Below are positions 1 to 16,477 of a stretch of 21,548 nucleotides of DNA, piece by piece (the stretch's first letter is position 1; every line of letters begins with the position of its first letter). Under the pieces are notes generated by a model. The model was not told where the DNA came from. It saw only the letters and a list, made by a program, of their open reading frames with translations, and did not search any database. This stretch comes from a virus, in the IMG/VR virus record IMGVR_UViG_3300025889_001100, positions 1 through 21,548 of that record, one strand, 5' to 3'. The translations under genes and the position numbers were made by a program.

Positions 1-40
1 ACAATGCAGAGCATATCTGTAGTATCAGAACAAATTTCAT
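1..40 (-). CDS. 5' end of a small gene cut by the window edge
   Basis: An ATG at 40 overlaps the preceding stop in TAATG and opens a frame of 13 codons to the edge: MKFVLILQICSAL. A Lys followed by a hydrophobic stretch with Cys looks like the start of a signal or membrane peptide. I recall short marine-phage proteins beginning MKF/Y-x-L-x-x-x-x-CS, but the visible part is too short to prove it. The coupling geometry matches five other junctions in this operon, which supports a real gene. Confidence 0.5.
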   Translation of the reverse strand, partial: MKFVLILQICSAL

Positions 41-1098
41 TATCTTGCAGTAGCTGGTATTGAAGAACTTACATTAGCTACAAGAGGTTCTGCTGCAAAT
101 GCCATGAAGATATATGTATCTCCAGAACCATTATTACCACCATCAGTACTTCTAAATTTAAAACCATTAGACAACATATCCATGCTATCTGAACCAGAAC
201 TTTCAGCTACATTTTGATTAGGAAATAATCTTAAATTATTTACATTTGTTGGGTCTCTACCTGTATCATTAATAGTCCAATTAGAAGTACCATTAGTATG
301 TTTAATCATAACAAAAGCAGGTTTAAATCCAGTATAAACAAATGTTCCATTAGCATTTCCATTACCAGTATAAGAACCAAACTTGCTGAAGCCTTTTATA
401 CTTGTAAAGGCATATATAATATTTGCATTTGAGCCATTTAATCCACCACCACTTCCTAAAGTAAATACAGATGATGTTGGTGCAGTTCTACTAGAACCTC
501 CAAATAAAGCACTATCATCAGCTTGTGCATCTGTAGTAAAACTTAATTTATAACCTGCATTTGTTAAATCTTTATGCCAAATACCCCAACCCGAGCCATC
601 TGATAAATCTTTCCCTATAAGCATATCAGGAACAGCACCCAAACCATGACCAACAGTAGCACCATCTGTTGCATTACCTGTATAAGAAACAATACTAAAT
701 CCACTTGTTGTATTAGCACTAACAGTTGAGGTTATGCTTCCATCAGTATTACTAGCTGTGCCATTAGCACCTAACCAGTTCCAACTAGCCATTGTATATG
801 TATTTGGATTAACTTCTCCAACAGTTGCATCATCTCCTAAAGTAAATCCATCTGAATCAAAACTTTTTAAAGTATCTGCAACAGTAGCTTCAGCATTAGT
901 TAAATTAGATTTAATTGTTTTTGTAGCACCTCTTACAGCATCAAATAAATTGTGATTTGCGGCTTGATTTCTTCTTTTTATCCAAACTAAATCTGGTTGA
1001 AAATTTACACCTGTAATAGCATGATTATCTGTTGAGTTACCTGTATAAAGTTTAGTATTAAAATAGTCGCTAGGTTTTGAGATTGTTGAGTATGCCAT
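40..1098 (-). CDS. DUF7483-type tail protein, copy 2
   Basis: A 352-residue paralogue of the protein at 3111-4136. It begins MAYSTISKPSDYFNTKLYTG and again has three units (28-109, 150-231, 257-336): NFQPDLVWIKRR (32-43), FDAVRGATKTI (52-62) and SFDSDGFTLG (79-88); GHGLGAVPDMLIGK (150-163) with VFTLGSG; and YTGFKPAFVMIKHTN (255-269) with FKFRSTDG. It closes with IPATAR, where copy 1 has VPCTAR. The gene begins 8 bases after the LamG-SPRY stop, and its own stop overlaps the next ATG as TAATG. Its biochemical role is unknown; tail location is inferred from gene context. Confidence 0.82.
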   Translation of the reverse strand: MAYSTISKPSDYFNTKLYTGNSTDNHAITGVNFQPDLVWIKRRNQAANHNLFDAVRGATKTIKSNLTNAEATVADTLKSFDSDGFTLGDDATVGEVNPNTYTMASWNWLGANGTASNTDGSITSTVSANTTSGFSIVSYTGNATDGATVGHGLGAVPDMLIGKDLSDGSGWGIWHKDLTNAGYKLSFTTDAQADDSALFGGSSRTAPTSSVFTLGSGGGLNGSNANIIYAFTSIKGFSKFGSYTGNGNANGTFVYTGFKPAFVMIKHTNGTSNWTINDTGRDPTNVNNLRLFPNQNVAESSGSDSMDMLSNGFKFRSTDGGNNGSGDTYIFMAFAAEPLVANVSSSIPATAR

Positions 1099-1106
1099 AT
1101 TATTTG

Positions 1107-2393
1107 TTATCCATAAGTGTTAATATTTTTTGTATTTAATGCGTAATATCCTGATGGTACATCATATTCAAATAAAGATCCATTACCATTTGAACCTGCA
1201 GAACTAATAGGTGTAGTACCAAAAAATCCATTGCCGAAGTTCCAAAGATGACCAGCATCTGAATGACCAGCATCTCCAAAATAATAAAATTTATCAGCAG
1301 TTAATGAAACTGAATTTCCTGTTGAAGCACCATTGATATAAAATTGAACTGTGTTGTTATCTAAATCCATAGCTATTCCAACTATTGTACCATTAGAGAA
1401 AGAAGTTAATCCAGTTTGTTGATTTGAATTTGCTTTTTTTATTTCTCCATTTTGAAGATAACCAATACTATCTGTTTGTTCACCTATAAAATCTTGGCTA
1501 TTTTGTCTTAAATTTGCTGTATCAACACTTATAACTCCAACAGAACTTGCTGCACCAACTGCATCAATTTCACATTCTGCATACCATTTTCCAGAAGATG
1601 CAGCTAATGTTGAATAAACTGCAAAAGTAGATGTTTGATTATAAAATGTTTTAGTATTTCCATTACCATAAACAACAGTAGGATCTTTTTGAGAAAGAGG
1701 ATTCATAGTAGCATAAACATTTGATGGTGTATCAAGTGCTTGTTTTAAATTTCCATTAACTGTAAATGTATTTGAGTTACCAGAACTATCTGTACCTAAT
1801 GCACCAGAGTTTTCCATTTTTAAATGAAAACCATTAGTACCCCAAGTAAGACCAGATGGTGATTTAAATTTCCAAATACCTGATGTAGAATCTGTTTCAC
1901 CGAATACAGTTGGAGCTAATGCTTGACCATCAACTAAAGCTACATGACTTATATAACCCTCAAAATATCCATCATTTCCACTCCAACCTATTTGATTTGA
2001 CCATGTATTATTCCAATTTGTAGAAGCATTTTGAGAATAAACTGTGTTTGATGCAAAAGATGTTTCTTGTACTCCATTAACATAAATTTTTGCTCTATCA
2101 TCAGATGATGCTTGGGTTGTATCTATATTACAAACTATATGATACCAGGCAGAAGTATCTCTAAATTTTCTATTAGTTGTCTTACCTAAAACTGTAGTAG
2201 AACTTGCATAATCTACAAAAGCTAATGTATCATCATCTAAAAATCTAATTGTAGTATTGTTACTTCCACTAGACCATTTAGCTATTACTTCTTGTCTTGC
2301 ACCTATTTTACTTCTTTTAACCCAAAAAGATGCAGTAAATTTAGTTGTACTTCCATTTCCACTAAATGTTTTATTTAAGTAACTGTTTGCCAT
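1107..2393 (-). CDS. LamG-like and SPRY-like domain protein, copy 2
   Basis: A 428-residue paralogue of the protein at 4136-5500 with the same two folds. LamG-like part, about 15-180: FTASFWVKRSKIG (19-31), NRKFRDTSAWYHI (74-86), DRAKIYVNGVQETSF (99-113). SPRY-like part, about 267-390: SSGKWYAECEI (266-276), GTIVGIAMDLDNNTVQFYIN (335-354), then LWNFGNGFFG. The end has FEYDVPSGYYALNTK. The regions that differ most from copy 1 lie in loops of both domains, which fits altered binding specificity. A TAGGAT site lies 9 bases before the ATG, and the gap to the preceding gene is 9 bases. No signal peptide or catalytic motif is seen. Confidence 0.82.
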   Translation of the reverse strand: MANSYLNKTFSGNGSTTKFTASFWVKRSKIGARQEVIAKWSSGSNNTTIRFLDDDTLAFVDYASSTTVLGKTTNRKFRDTSAWYHIVCNIDTTQASSDDRAKIYVNGVQETSFASNTVYSQNASTNWNNTWSNQIGWSGNDGYFEGYISHVALVDGQALAPTVFGETDSTSGIWKFKSPSGLTWGTNGFHLKMENSGALGTDSSGNSNTFTVNGNLKQALDTPSNVYATMNPLSQKDPTVVYGNGNTKTFYNQTSTFAVYSTLAASSGKWYAECEIDAVGAASSVGVISVDTANLRQNSQDFIGEQTDSIGYLQNGEIKKANSNQQTGLTSFSNGTIVGIAMDLDNNTVQFYINGASTGNSVSLTADKFYYFGDAGHSDAGHLWNFGNGFFGTTPISSAGSNGNGSLFEYDVPSGYYALNTKNINTYG

Positions 2394-2402
2394 AATATTA
2401 TC

Positions 2403-3107
2403 CTAGTTAAACTGTCCAGAGTTGTTAGCTCCTACTGTTATTGTTATACTAAATGCTCTATCAGCAGTTTGGTTTTCACCATCTGTTGCTCGTAGAGTAA
2501 AATTGTAAACTGTCTCTGCTGTTTCTGTTCCTGTATGTGTTCCAGTAATAGCACCAGTAGAAGTATTTAAACTTAACCCTGCAGGTAAACTACCAGATTG
2601 AACACTGAAAGCAACTGTACTATCAGATGTAGCATCAACATCAAAGTTTGCAGTTCCACCTTTTGCTAGACTTCCTAATGAACCAGAAGATGTCGACCAA
2701 GTAGGAGCATCAGATACAGTAAGTAAAGCAGTTGAAGATCTTACAGCTAATCCATTTGGATTTTCAATTCTAATAAAATAAGTTCCATCAGTTGCAAGTG
2801 TTGCGTTGATTGTTAATTGTGTAGCACTGTCTCTTGTTATTGTGTTTGGATAAAAGATTGCGCCAGTAGTAGATATAATTTCTACATTAGGAGTTATTAC
2901 AAATTCTGTTCCTGTAATTACAATGTTGGTTGCTGTGTTAGAAATTGTAGTTGGTGAAATAGATGTTATTGTAGGTTTAGTCTCGGCAACACCTGTAAGG
3001 TTAGCACCACTAACAGCAGGTAAAGCACCTGTACCATCTAGTTGTACAAACTCATTAGCTGTGTTTGCGTCTTTAAATATATCTGCTATTTCTTTTGCTC
3101 TTGTCAT
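2403..3107 (-). CDS. Short fibre-like protein with IPT/TIG and Ig-like domains
   Basis: A 234-residue protein made of a short N-terminal segment (1-43, AKEIADIFKDANTANEFVQL, LPAVSGANLTGV), an IPT/TIG domain (44-131, with FIRIENPNGL) and an Ig-like domain of the He_PIG type (134-226, with LPAGLSLNTSTGAITGT). It ends GQFN, like the big fibre. The N-terminal segment resembles a shaft-to-tip connector often found in marine phage fibres, so the protein may attach to another tail part through it. It matches the last two domains of the fibre at 5500-8130 and heads cassette copy 2. The ATG lies 3 bases after the stop of the previous gene. Role inferred: adhesin. Confidence 0.8.
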   Translation of the reverse strand: MTRAKEIADIFKDANTANEFVQLDGTGALPAVSGANLTGVAETKPTITSISPTTISNTATNIVITGTEFVITPNVEIISTTGAIFYPNTITRDSATQLTINATLATDGTYFIRIENPNGLAVRSSTALLTVSDAPTWSTSSGSLGSLAKGGTANFDVDATSDSTVAFSVQSGSLPAGLSLNTSTGAITGTHTGTETAETVYNFTLRATDGENQTADRAFSITITVGANNSGQFN

Positions 3108-3110
3108 ATT

Positions 3111-4136
3111 TTACCTTGCTGTACATGGTACATTGTTTGAACCTACTAATGATTGACCAAATGCCATGTAAATAATACTTCCTTGATTTGATGTAGTATC
3201 ATTAACTCTCATTTTAAATCCATTACTTAAAAAATCCATTAATGTTACAGTTCCCTCTGCTGCACTTAAATCTGGGTGTACATATTTATCAACTGCATTA
3301 AATGTATTTCTTTTGTTATCTACTAATACCCAACTATATGAGCCACTATCATATCTTTTGTAAATTACAAAAGCAGGTTTAAAGCCAGTGTAAATAAAGC
3401 TACCATCAGCATTTCCATTTCCAATAAAAGAACCAATTTTGCTATAACCTTGTTTCTCTGCGAAGCAGTAAGCTATATATGTTGCACCACTTGCATTTAC
3501 AGAACTATGAGTACCAAGTGTAAATACTGAAGAAGTTGGAGATGTATCATTCCATCTGTTTGATTGGTCGCTTGAAGCAGAAGCATCATTTAAAATTAAT
3601 CTATGAGTATTACCTAAAGATTGATGATAAACTTGCCAATCATTAACATCTCCTAAAATTCTTATTAGCATCATTTTTGGAGCAACACCTAGACCATGAC
3701 CGACTGTAGCTACACTTCCTGTACCAGTATATTTAACAATACTAAATCCTGCTGTTGTATTTGCTGATGTATAAGTTGAGTTTATAGTGCCATCTGTATT
3801 TGATGAACCTTGACCATTTGCTTTCCAGTTCCATGATACAAAATTGTTTCCACTTCCATTTGATTGAGTATTAGTATTTACTGTAAAACCATCTGAATCA
3901 AATGAAGATAAACCATTTGTATTTGTACCTTCTTCATTATTTAAATTTGAATAAATTGTTTTAGTTGCACCTCTAACAGCATCATATATTCTATGATTAC
4001 CTGTATCGGTTCTTGATTTAATCCAAGTCCAATCAGGTTGAAATCCTACTCCTGTAACATTATTTGTACTTCCTGTACCTGCATAAAGTTTAGTATTAAA
4101 ATAATCTGTAGATTTATTAATTGTAGAATAAGCCAT
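3111..4136 (-). CDS. DUF7483-type tail protein, copy 1
   Basis: A 341-residue protein of a type common beside marine phage tail genes, which I recall as DUF7483. It starts MAYSTINKSTDYFNTKLYAG and carries three related units of about 80 residues (27-107, 146-227, 248-327). Each has 'P-x-h-h-x-h-K/R', a short W-containing strand, an Asp/His-rich middle and an 'F-x-x-x-x-F ... A-F/W' close. GFQPDWTWIKSR (31-42), HDAVRG-like YDAVRG (51-56) and FDSDGF (79-84) are strongest in the first unit. The ATG overlaps the LamG-SPRY stop as TAATG. Function is unknown; a surface-exposed tail part is inferred from context. The paralogue at 40-1098 has the same layout. Confidence 0.82.
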   Translation of the reverse strand: MAYSTINKSTDYFNTKLYAGTGSTNNVTGVGFQPDWTWIKSRTDTGNHRIYDAVRGATKTIYSNLNNEEGTNTNGLSSFDSDGFTVNTNTQSNGSGNNFVSWNWKANGQGSSNTDGTINSTYTSANTTAGFSIVKYTGTGSVATVGHGLGVAPKMMLIRILGDVNDWQVYHQSLGNTHRLILNDASASSDQSNRWNDTSPTSSVFTLGTHSSVNASGATYIAYCFAEKQGYSKIGSFIGNGNADGSFIYTGFKPAFVIYKRYDSGSYSWVLVDNKRNTFNAVDKYVHPDLSAAEGTVTLMDFLSNGFKMRVNDTTSNQGSIIYMAFGQSLVGSNNVPCTAR

Positions 4137-5500
4137 TATAAATTTAATCCTTTTGTTGATAAAGCAGTATAGCCTGTTGGTACATCATATTCAAATATTC
4201 CATTACCACTTGCGTTAGTTCCTGCACTACTAATCTGGGTAGAACCGAAGTAGCCATTGCCGAAGTTTACTTCATAAGTAGCTGTTGCTGATGAATTTCT
4301 ATCACCTAAAGCAAGATGCCAAAAATCAGAATTTGCAGATAAAGTTGCTGCACCTGTACCAGTAGAGCCAGATGTAGGATCTCCACTATTACCCCAAGTT
4401 CCATTTTTACCGAAATATGCTTTTTGGTTATCTAAATCCATAGCAATCATAATTATGTCTCCTGTACCATAAGTTCCAAAGCTACCTTGACTACCACCAC
4501 TATCTTTATAAACATTACCATCATATTCATAACAAAGATTTGGAAATGAAGCACCTACTTGATTTGAATGTTGATTTGTTCTAGCAGATTCTCTAGCATT
4601 TGATGATGAGCTTAAAGATATATTACCCATATTAGAACTACTTTCTGCTGTAAATTTAATTTCAAAATAATATTTACCACTTGATGCACCTAAATTACTT
4701 GAACCACCAAAATTTCCACCAGTTGATGTAACAACTTTTGTATTACCATTACTAAATGTTGGTGCATTACTTGTTGGAACATTTAAAGGATTCATTGTTG
4801 CAAAAACATTGCTTGGATTATCTTCTGTTTTTGTAAGTGTACCACCACCAACTGTAAAATTATTTGAATTAGGAGATTGGTCTGTGACTGTGTTTCCATC
4901 TTTTAAAATTAAAAATCCATTAGTTCCATAAGATGATATTGTTGGAGAAGTATTTATTTTCCATTCTCCAGTTGTGCTATCTGTTGAACCAAATTGAGCA
5001 ATATCTATGACTGAACCATCAACATAGTAGAAGTGTGACATTGCACCATCAAATTGACTTGAAGTATCTCCACCATATTTGCCAATATAATTTGTATAAC
5101 CATTAGCATAACCTAAATCTGCATTTTGTGATGGATAAGTATCATTTGAAAATGATGTTTCTTGTACACCATTTACATAAAGTTTTATTCTATCTGATGC
5201 TGTGCTTTGTGTAGTATCAACTGCATAATAGATATGATACCACGCGTTGGGGTCTCTGAATTTTCTATTAGTTAAAAGAAAACCAGTTGCAGAACCACCT
5301 ACTACATTATAAAGACCTAATGTATCTGCTCCACTTGCTTGAAAATATATTACAAGTCTATTATCTGTACTGTAATACCCATTCCAAATGTGCTGTGCAT
5401 TACTTGAACCAACTTTAGATTTTTTTACCCAAACAGAAATAGTAAATTTTTTTCTGCTTGTAGGTGTTCCCATTGTTCTTTGTAAATATGTACTAGCCAT
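4136..5500 (-). CDS. LamG-like and SPRY-like domain protein, copy 1
   Basis: A 454-residue, Ser/Thr/Asn-rich protein with two binding folds. Residues 15-185 look like a laminin-G/concanavalin-A-like lectin domain: FTISVWVKKSK (19-29), NRKFRDPNAWYHI (78-90), and DRIKLYVNGVQETSF (103-117), the usual 'W-h-h-x-D ... h-Y-V-N-G' hairpin. Residues 273-416 look SPRY-like: SSGKYYFEIKF (273-283), GDIIMIAMDLDNQKAYFGKN (347-366). The end FEYDVPTGYTALSTK is shared with its paralogue at 1107-2393. With the preceding fibre gene it shares a TAATG overlap. It is probably a tail-associated adhesin or fibre accessory; no catalytic residues are evident. The sugar or protein bound is unknown. Confidence 0.82.
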   Translation of the reverse strand: MASTYLQRTMGTPTSRKKFTISVWVKKSKVGSSNAQHIWNGYYSTDNRLVIYFQASGADTLGLYNVVGGSATGFLLTNRKFRDPNAWYHIYYAVDTTQSTASDRIKLYVNGVQETSFSNDTYPSQNADLGYANGYTNYIGKYGGDTSSQFDGAMSHFYYVDGSVIDIAQFGSTDSTTGEWKINTSPTISSYGTNGFLILKDGNTVTDQSPNSNNFTVGGGTLTKTEDNPSNVFATMNPLNVPTSNAPTFSNGNTKVVTSTGGNFGGSSNLGASSGKYYFEIKFTAESSSNMGNISLSSSSNARESARTNQHSNQVGASFPNLCYEYDGNVYKDSGGSQGSFGTYGTGDIIMIAMDLDNQKAYFGKNGTWGNSGDPTSGSTGTGAATLSANSDFWHLALGDRNSSATATYEVNFGNGYFGSTQISSAGTNASGNGIFEYDVPTGYTALSTKGLNL

Positions 5501-8130
5501 TAGTTAAATTGTCCTCCACCTGTTGCACCGAAGCTAGAAGTAAAACTAAAGTTTCTATCTGCTGTTTGACTTTCGGCATCTGTAATCCTTATTGTAAAGT
5601 TATATGTTGTAGGTGTTGTTGAAGCACCACCAAAGTCTGTAGTTGTTATCACACCTGTAGAAGAATTTAAAGTACAATTTGCTGTAGTCAATACAGAAGT
5701 TGTTTCGCTAAAAGTAATTGCACTATCTGAACTACCTGCAATCGTTGCTACAGTTCCACTAAAGTTTCCTGCAATTGTACCAAGTGAACCTGCTGCAGTT
5801 GTAAATGATGGAGCAGTAGATGCAGTTAAAATATTTTGTGTACTTCTTCCAGCATTACCATCTGGATTTTCTATTCTTACATAATAATTTCCAGAAGCTA
5901 AAGTTACATTAACTGAAAGTGTTGTTGAGTTTGTAAATGAAACTGTATTAGCTAAAGTTACTGATCCGTCTGTTTTAATAAATTCTACAATTGGTATAGA
6001 TACAAATCCTGTTCCTGTAATATTTATTGTTGTAGCAGTTGCAGGAGCAATAGTTTGAGATACATTTGCTACTGTTGGTTTTGCTTCTACTGCGTCAACC
6101 CAAGATAATTGATTTGTACTTGCTCCATTACTTGCAAGAACTTGACCATTTGATCCAACTGAAGTTGGTAATATTAAAGTATAAGATTGTGCAGCAGAGT
6201 GTGCAGGTGATTTAATTTTTACACCATGAGAATTTTGTGAACAGTTTAATTGTATAGCAGCATCTGTTGATGAACCATCACCTTTAACTGTTAATGTTGG
6301 AGAAGGAAGTCTATCAATATTTAGAGTTCCGCTTGTAATATTTGATGCACTTATATTTGCAATATCAAAAGTACCATAACCAATTATGTCTATACTATCT
6401 CCTACTGCAGCACCAGCAGCTAATACAATAGATGTTCCACTTGTTACAGTAACATCAACACCATTAACTAATTTTACACCATTTTGATAAATGTCTACAT
6501 AACCAGCATCGTATGCCAAAGTCTCGCCATTATTATCTGTGCCTGTAAATGTAGTTTGACCAGCAGTTGCTGTGTAATAAAATCTTGCCGCAGTTGCATT
6601 AATGGAACTCCCAGCATTTATCCACCCAGTTGCAGAGTAAACTTTAAGCTGTCCAGCAACAGTATCAAAATATAAATCTCCAATATCTAATGCGCTTCCA
6701 TCTGGATCTGCAGTTGGAGCAGATGATTGTGGTCCAAGATAGATATTTGCAAAAGCATTGATGTCGGCAAGATTATTTGCTGCTGTGTTAATTGAAGCTA
6801 TGTTAGTTGCTACACTCGTAATATTAGAGTTTGCACCAGCTACTGTGTTTATATTAGTTGAATTTGAATTTACTGCATTAATATTCGTTTCATTTCCAGC
6901 AACAGCAGTTACATTAGAACTTATTCCTGCCACACTCGTTATATTAGCAGAAATTCCAGCAGTTGTGTTTATATTCGCTATGTTAGTTGCATTTGTGTTT
7001 ACATTCGCAATATTAGTTGCGACAGTTCCTATTGTGTTTGATCCAGATAGATCTGCAGCAACAGTATTAACATTTGCTTGATCTGAAGTTGATAATTGTA
7101 TTTGTCTCCATTGAGTGTTAGTCAAGTCATAAACTTTCATAACATCATCAGTAGTATTAAAGTATAATGCTCCGTCTGTTAATGCGTCTCCATCATTATC
7201 AACAGTTGGATCACTAGCTTTAGCACCTAAAAATTTATCATCAAAATTATCTAAAGCAGCTTCTGCAGCAGCTTGAGCTGTTTGTGCGGCAGTAGCAGAA
7301 GTCGCAGCATTTGTAGCAGATGTTGATGCGTTGGTAGCTGAAGTCGATGCTTCACCTGCTTTTGTTGTAGCTGTTGTTGCCGAGGTTGCAGCATTAGTTT
7401 CTGAAGTAGCTGCAGCTGTAGCTGATGCGGCAGCATTAGTAGCACTTGTTGTAGCACTAGCTGCATCTACCAATAGATCCCATTTAGCACTATCTGTATT
7501 TGTAGTTAGTGGTTGAGATCCAGAAGATGTATGACCAGTGTTACATAAAAAAATATTATTTGTTGATGTGTCTTTAACTATATCTCTTGCAGCATAAGTA
7601 GTTGATGCTGACCAGTTGCCTTTGAAAGTTCCTAGTTCTTGAGATACAACAAGTTCACCATTGTCATCAAAACCAAAAATCTTTCCAGCTCTATCAGTTG
7701 CGCCAACAGCAAACTCTGTGTTGTTCATTGTGTTGGTTCTTGATAACTTGATCGATCTATCAACTTCTTCTTGAAGTTGTTGGATTGACATCATTGAACG
7801 ATCCAATCCCTCTTCATGTGATTCCGCAGGGAAAGGATCATTAGCAATATAATCTATTGCTTGTGTTTGCGGAACAGCTCTTCTAATTACTACAGTTTCA
7901 GTTGCAGTTGGAATATTGCCAGTTGTGAATACTATAGTTCCACCATTAGCATTTCCTGCACCTGTTACTGTATAATGAGTCGTTAAAGTTTTTACTGTTT
8001 CAGTAGCTGTCGCATCCCTTATGATAACCTGTAAATCAGAGTCAGCAAAGATTTTAAAAGTATAGTTAAAGGTATCTAGTGTACCATTTCCAGAGTAGGA
8101 GTTCTTTACTGTAGTAGATGATATTGTCAT
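5500..8130 (-). CDS. Tail fibre with T7 gp17-type N-terminus, IPT/TIG and Ig domains
   Basis: This 876-residue fibre probably attaches to the nozzle and reaches the host surface. Domains in order: a gp17-like N-terminal beta sandwich (1-105, FNYTFKIFADSDLQVIIRD); a helix with EEGLDRSMMSIQQLQEEVDR (106-125); WSASTTYAARDIV (173-185); an Ala/Ser/Thr heptad coiled-coil (223-295); two copies of a small beta module (301-345, 465-509) flanking nine decapeptide repeats (370-459); a sandwich with QTTFTG and IYQNGVKL (513-590); a fibre domain (613-677); an IPT/TIG domain (684-770); and an Ig-like domain (773-868) ending GGGQFN. The C-terminal two domains recur as the gene at 2403-3107. GAGGAA lies upstream of the ATG. 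No depolymerase motif is seen. Confidence 0.9.
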   Translation of the reverse strand: MTISSTTVKNSYSGNGTLDTFNYTFKIFADSDLQVIIRDATATETVKTLTTHYTVTGAGNANGGTIVFTTGNIPTATETVVIRRAVPQTQAIDYIANDPFPAESHEEGLDRSMMSIQQLQEEVDRSIKLSRTNTMNNTEFAVGATDRAGKIFGFDDNGELVVSQELGTFKGNWSASTTYAARDIVKDTSTNNIFLCNTGHTSSGSQPLTTNTDSAKWDLLVDAASATTSATNAAASATAAATSETNAATSATTATTKAGEASTSATNASTSATNAATSATAAQTAQAAAEAALDNFDDKFLGAKASDPTVDNDGDALTDGALYFNTTDDVMKVYDLTNTQWRQIQLSTSDQANVNTVAADLSGSNTIGTVATNIANVNTNATNIANINTTAGISANITSVAGISSNVTAVAGNETNINAVNSNSTNINTVAGANSNITSVATNIASINTAANNLADINAFANIYLGPQSSAPTADPDGSALDIGDLYFDTVAGQLKVYSATGWINAGSSINATAARFYYTATAGQTTFTGTDNNGETLAYDAGYVDIYQNGVKLVNGVDVTVTSGTSIVLAAGAAVGDSIDIIGYGTFDIANISASNITSGTLNIDRLPSPTLTVKGDGSSTDAAIQLNCSQNSHGVKIKSPAHSAAQSYTLILPTSVGSNGQVLASNGASTNQLSWVDAVEAKPTVANVSQTIAPATATTINITGTGFVSIPIVEFIKTDGSVTLANTVSFTNSTTLSVNVTLASGNYYVRIENPDGNAGRSTQNILTASTAPSFTTAAGSLGTIAGNFSGTVATIAGSSDSAITFSETTSVLTTANCTLNSSTGVITTTDFGGASTTPTTYNFTIRITDAESQTADRNFSFTSSFGATGGGQFN
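6754..7023 (-). repeat. Nine tandem decapeptide (30-base) repeats in the tail fibre
   Basis: Fibre residues 370-459 divide without gaps into nine ten-residue units such as VATNIANVNT, NATNIANINT, VAGNETNINA and VATNIASINT. Position 2 is mostly Ala, while small-hydrophobic Val/Ile recur at positions 1, 5 and 8 and Asn is common. The regular period suggests a repetitive trimeric shaft. Each unit is 30 bases, but copies have diverged at DNA level. Confidence 0.85.
7246..7464 (-). repeat. SATNAATSA-type heptad repeat in the tail fibre
   Basis: The codons for fibre residues 223-295 form degenerate 7-codon repeats of the SATNAAT type (e.g. STSATNASTSATNAATSAT), without Pro. This is typical of trimeric coiled-coil shafts in phage fibres. 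The repetition is visible at DNA level as runs of gca/gct/act-rich triplets and also makes long open stretches in other frames. Confidence 0.85.
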
Positions 8131-8147: not shown

Positions 8148-11100
8148 CTATTCTTTATCTTGTTCAACATCTTTAATAATTTGTAAACCTTTTTGAGCCA
8201 AACCAATTCTTACCTTATAAAGATCATCTATTAAATCTCTTTTTTCTTCTGGAGTAAATAATGTACCATCATCTTTCATTTTAGCATTATATATAACTTT
8301 TATATCTTTTGATACTTGTTTCATACCTTTTTCTATCTCTATAACCGCTTCTATATCAAAATCAACTTTTTGTATTTCTTTTAAATATCCTTCGGTATTT
8401 CCAGTTTTAAGCAAATAATCTACTGTATTCATTATGGTTTTATAATCTTTTGTTTTATTATAAAATTGTTGTATTGAATTAGAATAACCATAAACATCTT
8501 TAGCTTGAAATACTCTAATACCCGGTATTTTTGTTAATGGATCAGCAGGTCTAATTGGGTCATCTATAATACCACCTTTAATTGCTATAGCATTAATAGC
8601 ATCTTTAGCCATCATACCAACACCACCAGTATAAGAATCATATATATTTTCTAAATATATTGGATTTGCAAAATAGTTATCTACTCCAACAATGATTGCT
8701 AAATTTTCTGCTAATGCTTTTATAGTTGGATTTGTATACTCTGTTGAATAATAAGAGTGAAGCATATCTTTTGGAGCATCTGTAGGTAGTATTGGAGCTT
8801 CTCTAAATATACTGTAGTCAAATAAATTTTCTAAATGAGGTCTTAAAAAAGTTGGAATAGGTGCATATCCTTTTGCGTGTTCTTTAGAAAAATCTTTTAC
8901 ATAACTCATAAATTCTTGTTTTTCATTTGTTCTTAAATAATCTAAAACTTTTTCAGTAAGGTTAGAAAAAAAAGTACCTACTTCAAATCCTTTTGGAAAA
9001 AACCTTCCTTCACCATTTACTTTAAAATAATATTTATTATTTTTAATATAATCTGGAAGTTCTTGATAGTCTTTATCAAGTTCTCCATTTTCATCTAAAT
9101 TAGAAATATAATTACCTACAGTTGGTAAAACTACAGCAAGTCCAATCATAGCAAAAAATTTTTTAGGTCTATCTCTACCTGCTTCATAAGCCTTTACCGC
9201 ACCATTTATTCTTGCTGTAAAAAATGGAACTCCTTTATTAATTCTTCCAGCTACTGTTCCTTGTCTTGTATAGTCAAGTAAATCTTTACTTTCAAAACCT
9301 GCTCTTTGTAAAGCATCTCTTTCTGATAAACCTTTTTTCTTTGCTGCTTTATAAACTTTTTCACTCATCATAACTCTAGTTGATATTTCCGAAACATCTG
9401 TAAGGTATCTAAATGGTCCTAATGGATTTGTTATTCCAATTTTATATTCATTTCTCATAACACCTTTGTTTAATAAAGTATGAGCATCTTTATCAAACAC
9501 AGTTCTATCTACTGATCTTAATGTACTAAATGCTGCGCCACTTTTTAAATATCTTTTATAGGCTTCTGTTGCTTTTTTGGGGTCTTTATAGACAACATGA
9601 AATATTCCTCTAATTGAATCTACAATAGGAATCCATCCTACTTTAGATAAAAAAGTTGCGTTCATTGTATCTTTAAAAAAGTTTGGTAAAGCAAAACTAG
9701 GGGTTACAATTGCACCAGATCTTAAAGTTCTAGTTGGTGCTGTTAGCCATTTTGCTACAAAATTCATACTTGGATTATCCATAACCCTAAAAGCAGTAAC
9801 TAAATCTTCACCAACTTCGTAAACTTCATATTTACCAGTTTTTGTATTTCTAAAAGAAATAGAGTTAGCATCTGGATAAACAGCTTCTTGTCTAAATATG
9901 GCAAGTTCTTGTACCCCTTTATCTGAAAGTCTATCAAGAGTTTCTTTATCAAAGAATTTTTCTAATTCTTTTCTTTGAACTGTAATTGGTTTTAATTCTC
10001 CTTTTTTCTTTTTAATCCAATCAAAAGCTAAAGGATCTTTTTTTTTAGCTTCTAAAACTACATTCATAAAATCATTTTTAGTTTTATTAAGCTCTGTCAT
10101 TCTAACAATATAATCTGTATTTTTAAGAATGCTTTCTAATGGATCTATAATTTTATATTTTTTTTGACCTTCTAATTTTTTAAATGGATTACTTGATCCT
10201 TTAATAAATCCAGATTCTCCGGGTCTAGGTAGCTCTACAGCCATTGGCATATAATTTTTATTAATTTCTTTATACGCATTAAAAGATTCTTTTGTTATAA
10301 GTCCACCATCTGCAGCATATTTTAAAACAGCTTGTTGATATAAATCTACTTTTTTAGCGGCTTGTTCATAAGTAATCATTTTACCTGTATCTGGATCTTT
10401 AACTTTTTTATTTGTATATTTTTTTAAAAGTATTTCTGCATTAGGAATATCAATAGGTGTATCTTTACCTCTTTTAGCAAGAGTTACTGCGTGTCTGTTT
10501 ACTAAATATGTGCCAAATAAAGTTGTTTCAGTTTTACTATCTTTTACAAATGGTTTTACAATAGACATAAGAGATGGTCCATTTTCAGCTAATGTTTTAA
10601 AATCAAGAGTTCCAAACTCAATAAAGTGTGCTGATCTTCCTTGCATACCCTCTTGCAATCTTAATAATTCGTATTCGTTTAATTTTTCAATACCTGTTTT
10701 AGTTTTAACATTAGCTTCTTTAAGAGCTTCTAGTACAGGATATTTTTTATCTATAGCTTTAATAATAAATTTTCTTTTTGTAGTTTTAGCTGCTTCTTTT
10801 ACAGATTGTGCTATTTGTTCTTTTGTAATTGGTATTTGTTTTCCTTCAAAAGAAATATTTTCTGCTGCTTTATTTGCAATAGGATCTGAAAATCTTGTTT
10901 TAAAAGGTTTATATGATGGAGTTATTTCTATTTCTTCTTTTGGTATTTCTATTTTTTTAGCATCTTTTATTTCATAAGCTCTAACTGTTACATTGTTTGA
11001 TAATACATCTTCTCTTACTGTTCTATTTTTTGCTAAATCTAAAGCTACATCTGTAGGTTTTTTTCCATAATCAACAAAAATTTGTTTTGATTTTTTTTGT

Positions 11101-11987
11101 GCTTTTCCTTTTGGTAATCTAATATTAAATATAGAAAACAATAAAGCAGTAGATGCAAACTCTCCTTTATCTGGTATTTCTTCATCTAATATTAAACCTG
11201 TGCCTTGATAGCCAGTTATTTGAGCTGCAGTTCTTGATATATAATTAGAAGCTAAAGTTTTTCCACCGGGAATTTTTAACATTGGTAAGGCAAGGGATGC
11301 AGAAAATTTTGCACCTTCTTTAACACCTTCCATTAAAGTTTCTTCTAATAATATCTTCATAACATCAGATGGTTTTCCTTCATCTTGATTTTCTAAAACT
11401 TTTAATAAAGTTGCTCTAGTTGTCGTGGGTATCATTGCTCCTGTAAATCCAGCACCTAATGATCCTGCAGGTGAACCAAGAACAGCACTTCCAGCATAAA
11501 TAGGAGAATCAACAGCAAGTGTGCCTAATGTTGAAAGAAACTCCTCTGTCCAAGTATAATCTTCTGGTCTTGGCATTGTAAATGCCTCTGGAGTACCTTC
11601 ACCTTTTGCAGCTCTTTTACTTATATTCCAAAGATTAGTTCCTAATATTTGTTCAGCTATATAATCTCCATCAAATTCTTTTCCTATTACAGTTTCTTTT
11701 ATATCTTTTATAGCTTGTTTAACTGGTTTACCTCTGTTTAAATTTGATTGGTATAGCATCTCATCTTCTGGAGAAACTATATCTTGTGCTAAATAATCTT
11801 TAGTTATTTTATTAACATAATCTTTAATAACTTTAGTATCTGGTTCAAATTTAAACTCATTAGAAATTTCTTTAGTAGTGAATCCACCTTCTTGAAGTTG
11901 TTTTACTTTATCTTGTTTCCAACCTGTTATTTCTTCTTGAGTAAATCCACCTTCTTGTAATAACTTTTGCTGATCATTTAAATTCAT
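8148..11987 (-). CDS. Large internal virion protein in the T7 gp16 position
   Basis: A 1279-residue protein, close to T7 gp16 (1318), which is ejected and spans the inner membrane during genome entry. At the N-terminus a helical unit occurs twice, 21 residues apart (LLQEGGFTQEEI, 9-20; QLQEGGFTTKEI, 30-41). A Gly/Ala-rich hydrophobic region (152-190) and another hydrophobic segment, FFAMIGLAVVLPTVGNYI (944-961), could contact membrane. The C-terminal half, with PTRTLRSGAIVTPSFALPNF (751-770) followed by FKDTMNATF, resembles the LPD38 domain found in large phage internal proteins. I see no N-terminal lytic transglycosylase domain of the T7 type. No clear ribosome binding site precedes the ATG, and the gap to the previous gene is 12 bases. 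Confidence 0.82.
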   Translation of the reverse strand: MNLNDQQKLLQEGGFTQEEITGWKQDKVKQLQEGGFTTKEISNEFKFEPDTKVIKDYVNKITKDYLAQDIVSPEDEMLYQSNLNRGKPVKQAIKDIKETVIGKEFDGDYIAEQILGTNLWNISKRAAKGEGTPEAFTMPRPEDYTWTEEFLSTLGTLAVDSPIYAGSAVLGSPAGSLGAGFTGAMIPTTTRATLLKVLENQDEGKPSDVMKILLEETLMEGVKEGAKFSASLALPMLKIPGGKTLASNYISRTAAQITGYQGTGLILDEEIPDKGEFASTALLFSIFNIRLPKGKAQKKSKQIFVDYGKKPTDVALDLAKNRTVREDVLSNNVTVRAYEIKDAKKIEIPKEEIEITPSYKPFKTRFSDPIANKAAENISFEGKQIPITKEQIAQSVKEAAKTTKRKFIIKAIDKKYPVLEALKEANVKTKTGIEKLNEYELLRLQEGMQGRSAHFIEFGTLDFKTLAENGPSLMSIVKPFVKDSKTETTLFGTYLVNRHAVTLAKRGKDTPIDIPNAEILLKKYTNKKVKDPDTGKMITYEQAAKKVDLYQQAVLKYAADGGLITKESFNAYKEINKNYMPMAVELPRPGESGFIKGSSNPFKKLEGQKKYKIIDPLESILKNTDYIVRMTELNKTKNDFMNVVLEAKKKDPLAFDWIKKKKGELKPITVQRKELEKFFDKETLDRLSDKGVQELAIFRQEAVYPDANSISFRNTKTGKYEVYEVGEDLVTAFRVMDNPSMNFVAKWLTAPTRTLRSGAIVTPSFALPNFFKDTMNATFLSKVGWIPIVDSIRGIFHVVYKDPKKATEAYKRYLKSGAAFSTLRSVDRTVFDKDAHTLLNKGVMRNEYKIGITNPLGPFRYLTDVSEISTRVMMSEKVYKAAKKKGLSERDALQRAGFESKDLLDYTRQGTVAGRINKGVPFFTARINGAVKAYEAGRDRPKKFFAMIGLAVVLPTVGNYISNLDENGELDKDYQELPDYIKNNKYYFKVNGEGRFFPKGFEVGTFFSNLTEKVLDYLRTNEKQEFMSYVKDFSKEHAKGYAPIPTFLRPHLENLFDYSIFREAPILPTDAPKDMLHSYYSTEYTNPTIKALAENLAIIVGVDNYFANPIYLENIYDSYTGGVGMMAKDAINAIAIKGGIIDDPIRPADPLTKIPGIRVFQAKDVYGYSNSIQQFYNKTKDYKTIMNTVDYLLKTGNTEGYLKEIQKVDFDIEAVIEIEKGMKQVSKDIKVIYNAKMKDDGTLFTPEEKRDLIDDLYKVRIGLAQKGLQIIKDVEQDKE

Positions 11988-11999
11988 ATTATTTACTTA

Positions 12000-13505
12000 T
12001 TAATTTTTTTGTATTCTTTCTAAATACTGACTTGGTGTTTCTCCTTCAAGTCTTTTAAATTTAGTATTAACTAAATTAAGTTCTTGTTCTTTTGCAAAAT
12101 TTAAAAGAGCATTTCTTACTTGTGATTTAGTTGGAGTATAAGCTAAAATATCTTTAGCAATATAATTTTCAGACAATGAATCTAATAATTTTGTTACTGG
12201 TATATTTTGTTTTAATCCTTCAACAAACCTGCTATACATATCTTGTCTAAAAGAACTTAATCTATTATTATAATTATTATCAAAATATTTAGAACTTGTT
12301 GATCCTTCAATTAAAGGAACAACTTTATTTATAAAATTAAAAAACTGTTTATTAGTTTTATTTAACTCTGGATTTTGTTGTGCTTCAAAAATATTATTAA
12401 AAAAATTATCATCACTTAAATTAATAGAACCATCTCCAACTCTTTCAGTAATACTTTTTGAATCTTTTTCTCCTGATAATTTAAATTTTTGAAATGGATT
12501 TTTTATTTCATTGTTTAAAATTTTATTAATAATTTTATCGTTTATCAAATAATTATTATCTAAACTTATTTGATTATTAATAATTTTATTATTTAAATTA
12601 TTAATTTGATTATCATATTCCTTATTTCCTGTATAATATTGATAAATATCATTTGGATCTATTCCAAAAAATTTATTAGCTTTGTCACCTTTTATAGCAT
12701 CTGCAACTTTTTTTTTAGATTCTACTAATTGTGTATTAGTTGCAAACTCTACAGCTTTACCTTGAAAAGTTGCTATTTGTCTTAATTCATTTCTCAAATC
12801 ATCCCTATCATCTCCTTTAATATTTGGATAATTTTTATCATCATCTAATAAACTTAATGCTCCATACGCATTTGTTATTGACATTTTTTTTACCATTTCA
12901 GTTTCAATTAATTTTGGTAAATTGTCTCTATAAATATTAAAATCTTGTTCACTTATAATTCCATCTTGAACTAAACCTCTATAATCGTTTAAAATATCAT
13001 TAGATAAAACTTTAAATTGAAAATTATTTCCACCTAAAGAATCTGCAATTTTAGATTTAACTTTTTGTTCTGTTTGACCAACTCTTGTAGTTACTAAATT
13101 TGTTCTAGTTTTATCAAGAATACTATTAACATATTTATTTTTACTAGCTGAAAATTCTAAATCAAAATATTTACCAACATCAGAATTTTTTGCTTGTGAT
13201 TTATATTTATCTTTAATTACTTTATATTGTTGATAAAAATAATCTAATCCTTCAGATGGATTATTTTTTAATTCCGCTGCTTGAGCAGCATTAAAAACAT
13301 CTACTGTTGCATCAGCAAATAACTCTCCAGCTTTTACTTTGTTAGTAATCTGTTCTTCTTTTGCATAATATTCTGCGATTGTAGATAATGGTTTTGTTAA
13401 TGCTCCAGCAACAGATTCAGTAGGGGAAATTTGAATACCACTTCTTACTCCAGTTGGTTCAGCTGTTGGTCTTGCAGTAGTTGCAAATGTAGGGATCTTT
13501 GGCAT
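12000..13505 (-). CDS. Internal virion protein in the T7 gp15 position
   Basis: A 501-residue protein placed exactly where T7 has gp15 (747 residues), a core protein that is ejected and helps build the channel through the periplasm. The start, with FATTARPTAEPTGVRSG (7-23), resembles N-termini of gp15-type proteins of marine podoviruses. After that it is mostly helical and charged with no enzymatic motif. Residues 297-337 are almost entirely Asn, Ile, Lys, Leu and Asp, and the DNA there is nearly pure A/T. A good AGGAG, 6 bases before the TAATG start, lies in the end of the previous gene. The position is strong evidence, the sequence alone weak. Confidence 0.75.
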   Translation of the reverse strand: MPKIPTFATTARPTAEPTGVRSGIQISPTESVAGALTKPLSTIAEYYAKEEQITNKVKAGELFADATVDVFNAAQAAELKNNPSEGLDYFYQQYKVIKDKYKSQAKNSDVGKYFDLEFSASKNKYVNSILDKTRTNLVTTRVGQTEQKVKSKIADSLGGNNFQFKVLSNDILNDYRGLVQDGIISEQDFNIYRDNLPKLIETEMVKKMSITNAYGALSLLDDDKNYPNIKGDDRDDLRNELRQIATFQGKAVEFATNTQLVESKKKVADAIKGDKANKFFGIDPNDIYQYYTGNKEYDNQINNLNNKIINNQISLDNNYLINDKIINKILNNEIKNPFQKFKLSGEKDSKSITERVGDGSINLSDDNFFNNIFEAQQNPELNKTNKQFFNFINKVVPLIEGSTSSKYFDNNYNNRLSSFRQDMYSRFVEGLKQNIPVTKLLDSLSENYIAKDILAYTPTKSQVRNALLNFAKEQELNLVNTKFKRLEGETPSQYLERIQKN

Positions 13506-14026
13506 TATCTACTCCTCGCAAAACTTAAATTAGCTTGTGTGTATTGACTTGGTGATGTGGATTGTCCGCCAAGTAATGATTGACCATAAGGTGCAACAGT
13601 TGCTGCGGCTTGACCATAATATCCAATAGCAGCAATTCTTCCTTGTTGTTTTGCAATATTTCCTTGCATTCTAGCAAAGTTAGCTTGTTCTAATGCTTGT
13701 GATTGAGCAACTTTAGAATTGTATTCCATAATATCTTTTTGTATTTCTGCTTGTTCAGCATTTGATCTTAATATTCTTAAAGCAGAACCAGATATTTCTG
13801 CACCAGATTTTATTACAGCTACTTTTGTTTGAGATTGTAATTGATTAAACTGTTGATCAAATCTTGCAATATCAAATTCATTTTGTCTTTCAATAGCTTC
13901 GGCTTGTTGTTCTGAAACTTGAGCATTTCTTTCTTGAATACTTTGATTATATTTTCCAAGAGCAGATGCTTGTTTTGCTGCGGCTACTGATGTTACTGCT
14001 GATACTACTGCTGTTTGCCAACCCAT
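13505..14026 (-). CDS. Internal virion protein, T7 gp14-like
   Basis: A 173-residue protein in the place of T7 gp14 (196 residues), which is ejected first and forms a channel in the outer membrane. It shows the gp14 pattern: a short hydrophobic Ala/Val start (WQTAVVSAVTSVAAAKQA, 3-20), a long Gln/Ala-rich helix likely to be coiled-coil (25-80, with QAEAIERQNEFDIARFDQQF), GAEISGSALRIL (75-86), a second long helix (90-130), and a Gly/Ser/Tyr-rich end. Sequence similarity to T7 itself is probably low, so the assignment rests on position, size and composition. A GAGG site precedes the TAATG start. AGGAG in its last codons serves the next gene. Confidence 0.82.
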   Translation of the reverse strand: MGWQTAVVSAVTSVAAAKQASALGKYNQSIQERNAQVSEQQAEAIERQNEFDIARFDQQFNQLQSQTKVAVIKSGAEISGSALRILRSNAEQAEIQKDIMEYNSKVAQSQALEQANFARMQGNIAKQQGRIAAIGYYGQAAATVAPYGQSLLGGQSTSPSQYTQANLSFARSR

Positions 14027-14478
14027 TAGAATAACCTCGCATACATATATTGATCAGAACCATCAAAACCAAATTTCTTCATTAAACCTTCTTCCTCTAA
14101 TCCTAACCATTTAGCAAATTTTAAACCTGTTGTATAGTTAGCTCTTATAGCAGTTTGAACTCTATTGATATTATTTTCTTTAGCAATTCTTGCAAAATCT
14201 TTCTTTATAGCTTTAGCGACTAGCAAAGGATGGTCTAAAACATCTTTAGTAGCTAGAACCCAACCTTCTGCAACACCATTCCAAACCATCTTCATACCTG
14301 CAGCAAATATAGGTTTGCCATTAATCATACCTGTAAATGCTAAATTATTTTGTTCTAGGTTATCTGGGTTTCCATTAAACTCCATATCTTTATCCATTAG
14401 TAAATGATTCATTTTTTGGTTCATAATATATCTTCCATGTTCACCTTTGTATTTAACTATATTTAATATTCTATCCAT
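14026..14478 (-). CDS. Internal virion protein, T7 gp13-like with GNAT-like fold
   Basis: A 150-residue protein in the gp13 position (T7 gp13 has 138). In T7, gp13 is needed for infectious particles. The sequence resembles an N-acetyltransferase (GNAT) fold: GMINGKPIFAAGMKMVWNGV (50-69), a helix with LLVAKAIKKDFARIAKEN, and RANYTTGLKFAKWLGLEEEG (112-131), the GNAT 'N-x-x-x-G-x-x-F-A-x-x-LGF' region. The acetyl-CoA-binding loop (Arg/Gln-x-x-Gly-x-Gly/Ala) is not visible, so a structural rather than enzymatic role is more likely. The ATG overlaps the nozzle stop by 8 bases and the stop overlaps the next start as TAATG. Confidence 0.85.
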   Translation of the reverse strand: MDRILNIVKYKGEHGRYIMNQKMNHLLMDKDMEFNGNPDNLEQNNLAFTGMINGKPIFAAGMKMVWNGVAEGWVLATKDVLDHPLLVAKAIKKDFARIAKENNINRVQTAIRANYTTGLKFAKWLGLEEEGLMKKFGFDGSDQYMYARLF

Positions 14479-16477
14479 CGTTTGTTTGAAGTTTAGGATA
14501 TAAAGATAGGATCGTCAAAGGTAAAGGTTGAGTTTGTCTTACAAATATAAAACCATCTGTTTCATAGTTGCCTCTAAATTCTATTTCTTTATCTCCAGTA
14601 AATACATTAATACCACTATCCATTGCATTAGCTGAAGATCTAAAAGGTATTCTTTCCATATTGTTAAGATCTGGTCCAACTTCAACACCAATACTTTCAT
14701 AAAGTCTAGCAGTGATTTCATATATTCTTTTTGTTTTAGATTGTGATGTACCATTCTGCGCACCAGCATCTATTCTCATTGTTTGTAATAATGATGTATA
14801 ACCTAATCCAACTTTAACTTTACTTGCAGATCTTTCTAAAGTTATTGATCCAGAGCTAACTGTTTTATCTGGATGAGTTGCGCCATCTGCTAATACTGAA
14901 ACTGTTTGACCTTCAAGATGAGCAAGACCAGATATAGTTGTAACTGCAGATCCGTCATAAGATAATTGTGAATCTAAAAAATTAAAAGATGTATCATCAC
15001 TCTCATCAAAATCATATTGATGAATAAATTCTACATATCTTTTTGTTGCACCATTAATAGTTCTTTTAATAATTACCCATGATTGATATTCAGAATCATC
15101 TGTAGGAATTGTAGCAATACTTTCACAAACTGCGTTACCACTTCCAAATGCTCCACCAAATATATGTCTATGCCAAGCAACAACTTGCTGTTCTCTTTGA
15201 TAAGTTAATCCAATTAACTGACCATCATTTCTTACACCCCATATAACTTGATTAGGTTCTTGTTGGTATGATAGTTGTTTAAATCCACCTTCTGAAATAT
15301 GTTCAGCAAGTATAGTTAAGTCTGGAGCAACATAACCATCAACATCAAAGTTGTAAGCTAGTTCTCTCATTTTTCTTCTAGCTCTTTGTAAAAAGATAGT
15401 TGCATTACCAACAGCTAAAGCATCTACATTTGCTGCGCCATTGTTAGATTGTTTTTTAATTAATATATTTGTAGGGGTAACAGCAACATCTGTTCCACCA
15501 CCACTAACTGTAAACTCACCACCTGCTGTACCAATAATTAAAGTTCTTGTTGATGTCATAAATCTAATTGCGTTTACTTGGTTAGATGCAATCGTATAAA
15601 TAATAGCATCATCGTCTGCAATAGTTCCGCCTCTATTCTCATCCATATTTTCATAATCACCAGATCTTGAAAAAAATATTGTTTGTGGTTGTGATAAGGT
15701 TGCTGCAAATACTAATCTTTGTTCAAAGAAAGTAACACATGAAGCATGACCTGTAGTATTTGAAAAAGCACCTAACGACCAATCTGTTGATGCAGTTGAT
15801 GAACCTGTATCTTTTATTATTTCCCATGTAACAACTGTAGCTGAAGTGTAAGCTGTAATTTTTCCATAACCATCTCTAAATCTAACTAATCTTCCAACAT
15901 CTGTAGTTACCCATAAACTTGCACTAGATGTTAAAACTCTACCTGTTCCTACTGTATGATGATCTGTATTTAGTGTTGTTGTTGTAATGTTGTCGTCTAG
16001 ATATGGACCATTAGTAAAATCTACATCTGTTAGTGTCCATGATGTATGACCTGTTCTTGATAATTTTTTTACTGGATGATTAGGATGACACACATACATA
16101 ACATCTGCTGATTGCGCATATTTAATATCAAATAGTTCTGCTTCTAAATATGGTGATGATATTTCATAAGCTGAACCACTAGATAATATTTGACCATTGT
16201 CTTTATAAAATCTTATATATTGATCTCCAAACTCTAACATATAAGTTTGTGCTGTAGAAAACTCAAAAGGAATTAATCTTGTTTCTTTAGAACTATCTTT
16301 TACTTCTGAAACAAACTGTGTACCAGATCTTCTTGCCGCACTTCCATGAGGAAAGATAATCATGTTCTCTAATGTTTTACATCCTGTAGGATATTTAGCT
16401 AAATCATTTCTACCATCTAGTCTTGGTGATAATTCTCCACCAGTAAAATTGGTTAATTGAACAGCAACTCTAGCCAT
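14471..16477 (-). CDS. Tail tubular protein B (nozzle), T7 gp12-like
   Basis: This is the nozzle protein at the end of the short tail; six copies form the tube and help hold the fibres. It has 668 residues, shorter than T7 gp12 (794). The family signature is at the N-terminus: LTNFTGGELSPRLDGRNDLA (8-27), then YPTGCKTLENMIIFPHGSA (29-47) and the basic ARRSGTQFV (47-55). The remainder is rich in beta strands with turn motifs such as VCHPNHPVKKL, VTFFEQRLVFA and IFFSRSGDYENM, as expected for its propeller-like body. The start lies 3 bases after tail tubular A, with AAGG about 9 bases before the ATG. The stop overlaps the next start in ATGGATAG. The identification is secure. Confidence 0.95.
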   Translation of the reverse strand: MARVAVQLTNFTGGELSPRLDGRNDLAKYPTGCKTLENMIIFPHGSAARRSGTQFVSEVKDSSKETRLIPFEFSTAQTYMLEFGDQYIRFYKDNGQILSSGSAYEISSPYLEAELFDIKYAQSADVMYVCHPNHPVKKLSRTGHTSWTLTDVDFTNGPYLDDNITTTTLNTDHHTVGTGRVLTSSASLWVTTDVGRLVRFRDGYGKITAYTSATVVTWEIIKDTGSSTASTDWSLGAFSNTTGHASCVTFFEQRLVFAATLSQPQTIFFSRSGDYENMDENRGGTIADDDAIIYTIASNQVNAIRFMTSTRTLIIGTAGGEFTVSGGGTDVAVTPTNILIKKQSNNGAANVDALAVGNATIFLQRARRKMRELAYNFDVDGYVAPDLTILAEHISEGGFKQLSYQQEPNQVIWGVRNDGQLIGLTYQREQQVVAWHRHIFGGAFGSGNAVCESIATIPTDDSEYQSWVIIKRTINGATKRYVEFIHQYDFDESDDTSFNFLDSQLSYDGSAVTTISGLAHLEGQTVSVLADGATHPDKTVSSGSITLERSASKVKVGLGYTSLLQTMRIDAGAQNGTSQSKTKRIYEITARLYESIGVEVGPDLNNMERIPFRSSANAMDSGINVFTGDKEIEFRGNYETDGFIFVRQTQPLPLTILSLYPKLQTNDG

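Follow-up and report, generated by a model that had tools for sequence, protein, structure and literature searches.

A linear virus fragment of 21,548 bp (IMG/VR record IMGVR_UViG_3300025889_001100), analysed over its whole length and referred to here as the window, contains two homologous units with the identical order T-L-D (positions 40-6087, minus strand), in which T is an immunoglobulin (Ig)-like fibre end, L a protein with LamG and SPRY domains and D a DUF7483 protein. We consider it probable, at roughly 70%, that the units form a two-slot adhesin array, carried by an HTVC010P-type pelagiphage, with L and D as an exchangeable payload. Comparison with related phages shows that T keeps its slot, that the order of anchors recurs within lineages and that close relatives carry distant L-D alleles. 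Each slot would comprise a slot-specific N-terminal anchor, an Ig-like part and a conserved -GQFN terminus. We infer that L and D are mounted on the T end as a receptor-binding tip at the end of the tail, that recombination exchanges payloads at the conserved flanks (T end/L start, and D end), and that both tips are mounted simultaneously and bind different host surface molecules.

The large genes of the window, named from position and relatives, were all located on the minus strand and are arranged as portal, scaffold, capsid, tail tubes, internal virion proteins and then fibre. The portal had 91% identity to that of Greip EXVC021P and 89% to that of HTVC024P, with 79-91% across the HTVC010P-type group and at most 59% beyond it. 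On this core structural gene the virus belongs with the HTVC010P-type pelagiphages, and this marine virus probably infects SAR11 bacteria. Six coding parts come after the internal virion proteins (fibre with T end, L, D, T, L, D; 40-8130). The slot A adaptor is the main tail fibre (5500..8130; 876 amino acids, aa), identified from its open reading frame, PHROG matches and homology, with a T7-type N-terminus and a T part at its C-terminal end (about 5500-6087, from homology to T_B) that ends in ...GATGGGQFN. PHROG tail and tail-fibre families match the N-terminal portion of this fibre. The slot A payload consists of L_A (4136..5500; 454 aa), with LamG-like and SPRY-like domains and a 1-nt overlap with the fibre stop, and D_A (3111..4136; 341 aa), a DUF7483 protein with three internal beta repeats and a 1-nt overlap with the L_A stop. 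The slot B adaptor T_B (2403..3107; 234 aa) starts 3 nt after D_A, carries a short TKAR-type anchor (about 2988-3107) preceding its T part and ends in ...GANNSGQFN. It is followed after 9 nt by L_B (1107..2393; 428 aa; LamG plus SPRY) and after a further 8 nt by the DUF7483 protein D_B (40..1098; 352 aa), the final member of the array; all of these lie on the minus strand. The window terminates just past D_B. Contig L083 overlaps it by 794 bp with 100% identity and continues into small genes and a peptidase-M15-like gene, with no further unit, which rules out a third T-L-D copy past the window edge.

Pairwise alignment of the two units gave 47% aa identity for the D pair (40-1098 vs 3111-4136; 168/355; E 3e-93), 41% for the L pair (1107-2393 vs 4136-5500; 188/458; E 2e-85) and 47% for T_B (2403-3107) against the final ~195 residues of the 876-aa fibre (94/200; E 1e-42). 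The likeness of all three pairs far exceeds chance, and DNA repeats were colinear between the units, 3.02-3.10 kb apart. The N-termini of the two T parts differ, being a T7-type fibre N-terminus in slot A and MTRAKEIADIFKDANTANEFVQLDGTGALPA... in slot B. Both D proteins matched Pfam DUF7483 (PF24299) over the full length, with 411 and 415 bits over 330 positions (E 2.6e-124 for D_A and 3.8e-123 for D_B) against a curated Pfam score threshold of 27 bits. L_B matched Laminin_G_3 (E 3e-16) and SPRY (E 2e-9). In L_A the Pfam SPRY match was sub-threshold only, and its membership of the LamG and SPRY group comes from phrog_27411 and the predicted fold: the AlphaFold2 (AF2) model (predicted local distance difference test score, pLDDT, 89) gave Foldseek matches to neurexin/laminin G and SPRY. 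An Ig domain, He_PIG, was matched by Pfam in T_B only (E 3e-14), and no TIG/IPT family match was found by Pfam in the T parts of either copy. A first-pass annotation, made from the DNA letters alone, had described these three gene pairs in this order and at these places, with the first part joined to the main fibre in one copy but free-standing, with a different N-terminus, in the other, all of which the alignments bear out. Its unit lengths of 2.97 and 2.94 kb fit when counted from the start of T homology (about 6087 and 2984). Of its domain labels, DUF7483 in both D proteins, LamG-SPRY (for L_A by fold) and Ig hold, and IPT/TIG is left without a Pfam match.

The N-terminus of T was the most variable feature between units, and each slot appears to be a T protein with its own N-terminal anchor. 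The anchor of slot A is the entire T7-type fibre; that of slot B is short, begins MTRAKEIADIF and is 55-66% identical to the starts of standalone T proteins in HTVC024P, HTVC031P and seven contigs. HTVC024P and HTVC031P have a single standalone TKAR slot beside a fibre annotated as a separate gene, Greip EXVC021P has the fused slot type only, and the window holds both types. The first-pass annotation had proposed a survey of related phages for one-, two- and three-copy versions; among 66 fully spanned arrays, selected by similarity to the window so that the counts are not population frequencies, 46 had one unit, 11 had two and nine had three. Recurrent anchor orders were IEVDK>SEVKVNK>SILKV (six arrays), SEVKVNK>GILKV (four) and AYIG>AYIG (four), and the window's order, fused>TKAR, was also found in four other phages, on contigs ending inside the second unit. 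Two slots each were present in the complete genomes of HTVC103P and HTVC104P. L-D arrays lacking T were also observed (L019, L036, L062, L063, L078, L082 and L089); here L bears a different N-terminal anchor of about 55 residues (MSKQNGGIIGP...; M..NGGIIGP...).

Relatives of T, L and D were gathered from viral contigs and phage records, and 182 T-L-D units were compared. Between slots with T ends at least 90% identical, median identity was 48% for L and 52% for D, and the values for slots with unlike T ends were only a little below these (40% and 47%). Cultured HTVC121P and HTVC105P share 93% identity in the fibre and 96% in the T end, with 42% in L and 52% in D; cultured Greip and HTVC204P share 91% and 94%, with 57% in L and 58% in D. 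As the pattern of conserved T and diverged L-D is also seen between cultured isolates, it is not an assembly error. Between contigs L202 and L213, DNA identity was 84-100% across the three T genes and 99-100% in the downstream flank, with all three L-D pairs replaced and the identity breakpoints at T end/L start and D end/next T start. Third-position differences between them were 0.04 in T and 0.45-0.51 in L-D, and the payloads therefore resemble imported alleles and not the outcome of rapid point mutation. The window and contig L233 have 95% aa identity in the fibre (99-100% over long DNA stretches), dropping to 66% aa in L. Variation of the lectin gene and the next gene between near-identical relatives, by which the HTVC010P-type hypervariable region is recognised, is thus present here. 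Identities were correlated at 0.57 for L and D, 0.32 for T and L and 0.18 for T and D, and one long cyanophage protein family, phrog_19943, spans both L and D (LamG near its start, DUF7483 at its end). The co-inheritance of L and D and this shared long family therefore indicate that L and D are a functional pair. A division into two clean ancient classes by the T-L junction (1-nt overlap vs 9-nt gap) was dropped: the junction types do group on the D tree, yet they take at least 14 changes there, which makes the division a tendency. Avoidance of similar tips within a genome was not supported, L identity within genomes being the same as shuffled and D identity slightly higher.

Related L-D lineages also occupy different anchors in different phages. 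Contigs L208 and L213 share a stretch of 3.8 kb with 99.2% identity that includes T1, and a 1.7-kb L-D block with 93-100% identity, which L208 carries in slot 1 and L213 in slot 3 and which stops at the D stop codon. Further D sister pairs on different anchors were recovered with strong support, one of which includes the isolate HTVC021P. The L208/L213 case could be an assembly misjoin; the tree evidence is independent of that case.

Two conserved T-end/L-start stretches of the window (2272-2504 and 5422-5697) have 91-92% DNA identity to contigs L231 and L086, which physically end at those stretches; these are candidate recombination flanks. Of the contigs anchored on the fibre-adjacent internal virion protein, 19/30 stop inside the fibre gene, no more than 400 bp from its start (window 7730-8084), which would fit assembly failure in a variable region.

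Thirds of D were mutually homologous (hhalign probability 97-98%, E 7e-12 to 7e-14), so DUF7483 is a threefold internal repeat. The AF2 model of D_A had a pLDDT of 93. No convincing match to a solved structure was found for DUF7483, the best having E 5e-4 (TM-score 0.24) in one case and Z 5.6 over 78 residues in the other, and assignment to a known fold was dropped because these matches were too weak. A single chain with pseudo-threefold symmetry would suit a trimeric fibre end, and D may accordingly be the part that caps the trimeric T end.

The alternative that survives best, although we regard it as unlikely, is that the second set is a spare, with one set expressed or assembled at a time and switched by recombination or regulation. 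The presence of L-D lineages on different anchors would fit this, as would HTVC200P, which has an inverted D between two L genes. The order in this phage (L150, 7507-12378) is T, L, inverted D, L, D, which could represent a rearranged or invertible payload. In the window, however, both units lie on one strand with inter-unit gaps of at most 3 nt, suggesting co-expression, and each T has a different, conserved anchor that would be needless in a mere spare. No inverted repeats flanking the units were found in the window, where 0/14 weak pairs bracket a unit. Two slots with different anchors fit two simultaneous tips better than a spare copy, and the proposal in the first-pass annotation that one virion could carry two specificities is possible given a fused and a standalone copy of probable binding proteins.

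The same annotation had explained the two units as a local tandem duplication. Divergence after duplication of the T-L-D unit in this lineage would be consistent with their same order, similar lengths, 41-47% identity and adjacency with a 3-nt gap. Each part, however, has its nearest relative in another phage. For slot A these were 93% identical for T_A (L142), 66% for L_A (L233) and 62% for D_A (L108), and for slot B 74% for T_B (L185), 56% for L_B (L279) and 63-65% for D_B (L084), compared to 41-49% identity of each part to its own partner in the window. Counted over the other 181 units, slot A was nearer to 129 (T), 136 (L) and 128 (D) than to its partner, and slot B to 159 (T), 46 (L) and 92 (D). 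Across multi-copy arrays the best match lay within the same genome for 0/80 copies of T, 1/80 of L and 1/80 of D, and mean identity within and between genomes was 0.458 and 0.472 for D, 0.398 and 0.413 for L, and 0.557 and 0.559 for T. Approximately unbiased (AU) tests, run on reduced sequence sets under LG+G4, rejected a sister relationship between the window copies: P = 1e-4 for T, 3e-4 for L and 0.043 for D. The sister-copy trees lost 117 (T), 117 (L) and 69 (D) in log-likelihood. Single-slot phages are also known for both anchor types, fused (Greip) and standalone (HTVC024P, HTVC031P). A recent local duplication was ruled out by the nearest relatives, the similarity ranks and the AU tests, and duplication within this lineage in general is improbable; a very old duplication may stand at the origin of the slots. 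What persists of the earlier interpretation is a three-part unit of probable binding proteins, repeated and diverged. Its duplication in place is not supported, and it does not evolve as a whole, since T keeps its slot and L-D is exchanged.

An equally improbable alternative is that L and D are other virion parts, e.g., capsid decoration or fibre-folding chaperones. The family phrog_19943 is named 'virion structural protein' in the head and packaging category, and the tail location of L and D is a prediction. On the other side, L and D always come after the fibre or another anchored T, lectin-like folds are predicted in L, and extreme allele exchange is typical for host recognition, the same reading being given by the authors of the Skadi-1 study (PMC10504331). 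Finally, a diversity-generating retroelement, which can target hypervariable phage receptor-binding genes (PMC10743442, PMC6199706), is a most improbable source of the diversity, since a reverse transcriptase (PF00078) was not found in six records (the window, whose genome is incomplete, L083, the source records of L202 and L213, and the complete HTVC024P and Greip genomes) and differences fall at all codon positions along L and D and are not adenine-only.

Several points nevertheless weigh against a two-slot array with exchangeable payloads. The tail location, receptor binding and joint slot filling proposed for L and D are predictions, and PHROGs places D's family under 'head and packaging'. 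Metagenome assemblies, which are liable to misjoin repeated genes, are the source of the three-slot arrays and of the L208/L213 swap. Payloads in the same slot are slightly closer than random, so exchange is not entirely free. The AU test of D sisterhood was barely below 0.05, and D identity within genomes exceeded the shuffled value a little (0.458 vs 0.444), so that a degree of old duplication is conceivable.

Hypervariability of L-D in a single slot is already known. In Skadi-1, a published hypervariable region (13,646-15,713), reported to be conserved in HTVC010P-type phages, includes a lectin-domain protein and was put forward as an arms-race hotspot (PMC10504331), and the Skadi-1 genes matching L (14408-15730) and D (13353-14408) coincide with it. 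Skadi-1 is single-slot, and that study and the work on marine metaviromic islands (PMC3909814) describe low read recruitment; multiple slots, anchor order, the distinction between adaptor and payload, and cross-slot sharing, as found in window-type arrays, do not feature in these papers. Host-recognition genes of marine phages are known to under-recruit (PMC3909814), and HTVC010P-like genomes assemble badly owing to microdiversity (PMC6487183). In the open-access literature we found no account of multiple slots per genome, recurrent anchor order, cross-slot payloads or the DUF7483 repeat, and no paper using the name DUF7483. The multi-slot array, cross-slot payload sharing and the threefold repeat of DUF7483 appear to be new.

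Among cultured phages, HTVC103P and HTVC104P are alike in having two T-L-D units per complete genome with an own N-terminus for each T, and their slots correspond by position between the two phages and not within one genome. They differ in belonging to another phage group (54 kb), in having both anchors of the AYIG type and in having two other genes between the units. Greip EXVC021P and HTVC204P (fused slot) and HTVC024P and HTVC031P (standalone TKAR) share the T-L-D order and the window's slot A or slot B type; these four have one slot each, and the two TKAR phages have a shorter fibre and carry the T part on a standalone protein. In T2/S16-type phages (PMC12892980), gp37-gp38 likewise pairs a conserved distal fibre gene with a hypervariable adhesin, which is encoded by a separate gene after it and sits on the trimer tip. 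That adhesin, gp38, is a polyglycine-II sandwich, a fold that differs from those here as far as they were compared, and the window has two adhesin genes and several slots, with no homology evidence; gp38 was not among the structure matches of D or L, which does not exclude homology. The 1227 positions of phrog_19943 (LamG at 33-210, DUF7483 at 894-1221) join L and D as one chain, in one protein without a separate T adaptor. Some T7-like phages have two receptor-binding proteins (e.g., K1-5), with several, differently anchored, on one short tail, and they exchange whole spikes or their C-terminal domains. Unlike these, the system in the window would exchange unfused L-D genes behind a retained adaptor.

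A wider proposal, which we put forward tentatively and at slightly less than even odds, is that the sockets of marine phages come in ordered arrays of up to three, each with a private anchor, and are refilled from a pool of L-D cassettes common to several phage families and mobile between sockets, with a tip that includes a single-chain pseudo-trimer, DUF7483, capping a trimeric adaptor. If true, receptor binding would be combinatorial, a small phage showing as many as three independently exchangeable specificities, and a shared, swapped adhesin pool may help phages to keep pace with changing hosts. Pelagiphages rank among the most abundant marine viruses, and no mode of SAR11 recognition is yet established for them. 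Should the slots prove real, these phages would recognise hosts through a two-gene plug-in cassette behind a conserved socket, and a virion may try two or three specificities together. The slot model names candidate receptor-binding proteins and offers a reason for assembly breaks at the fibre; cultured phages with a shared fibre but differing L and D are the natural comparison.

Upstream of the array, the internal virion proteins of the window (8164-13662) and of L233 (2178-7341) do not align, though L233 matches the window at 95% identity in the upstream tail genes and almost completely in the fibre; the internal virion protein module is exchanged as well. An LPD38 polyvalent-protein domain (E 5e-27) occupies residues 971-1155 of one internal virion protein (8148-11987; 1279 aa). 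A 150-aa gene (14026-14478) is located between the tail tube and internal virion genes, and the gene in the same place in the uncultured phage S46-C10 is annotated as a putative acetyltransferase.

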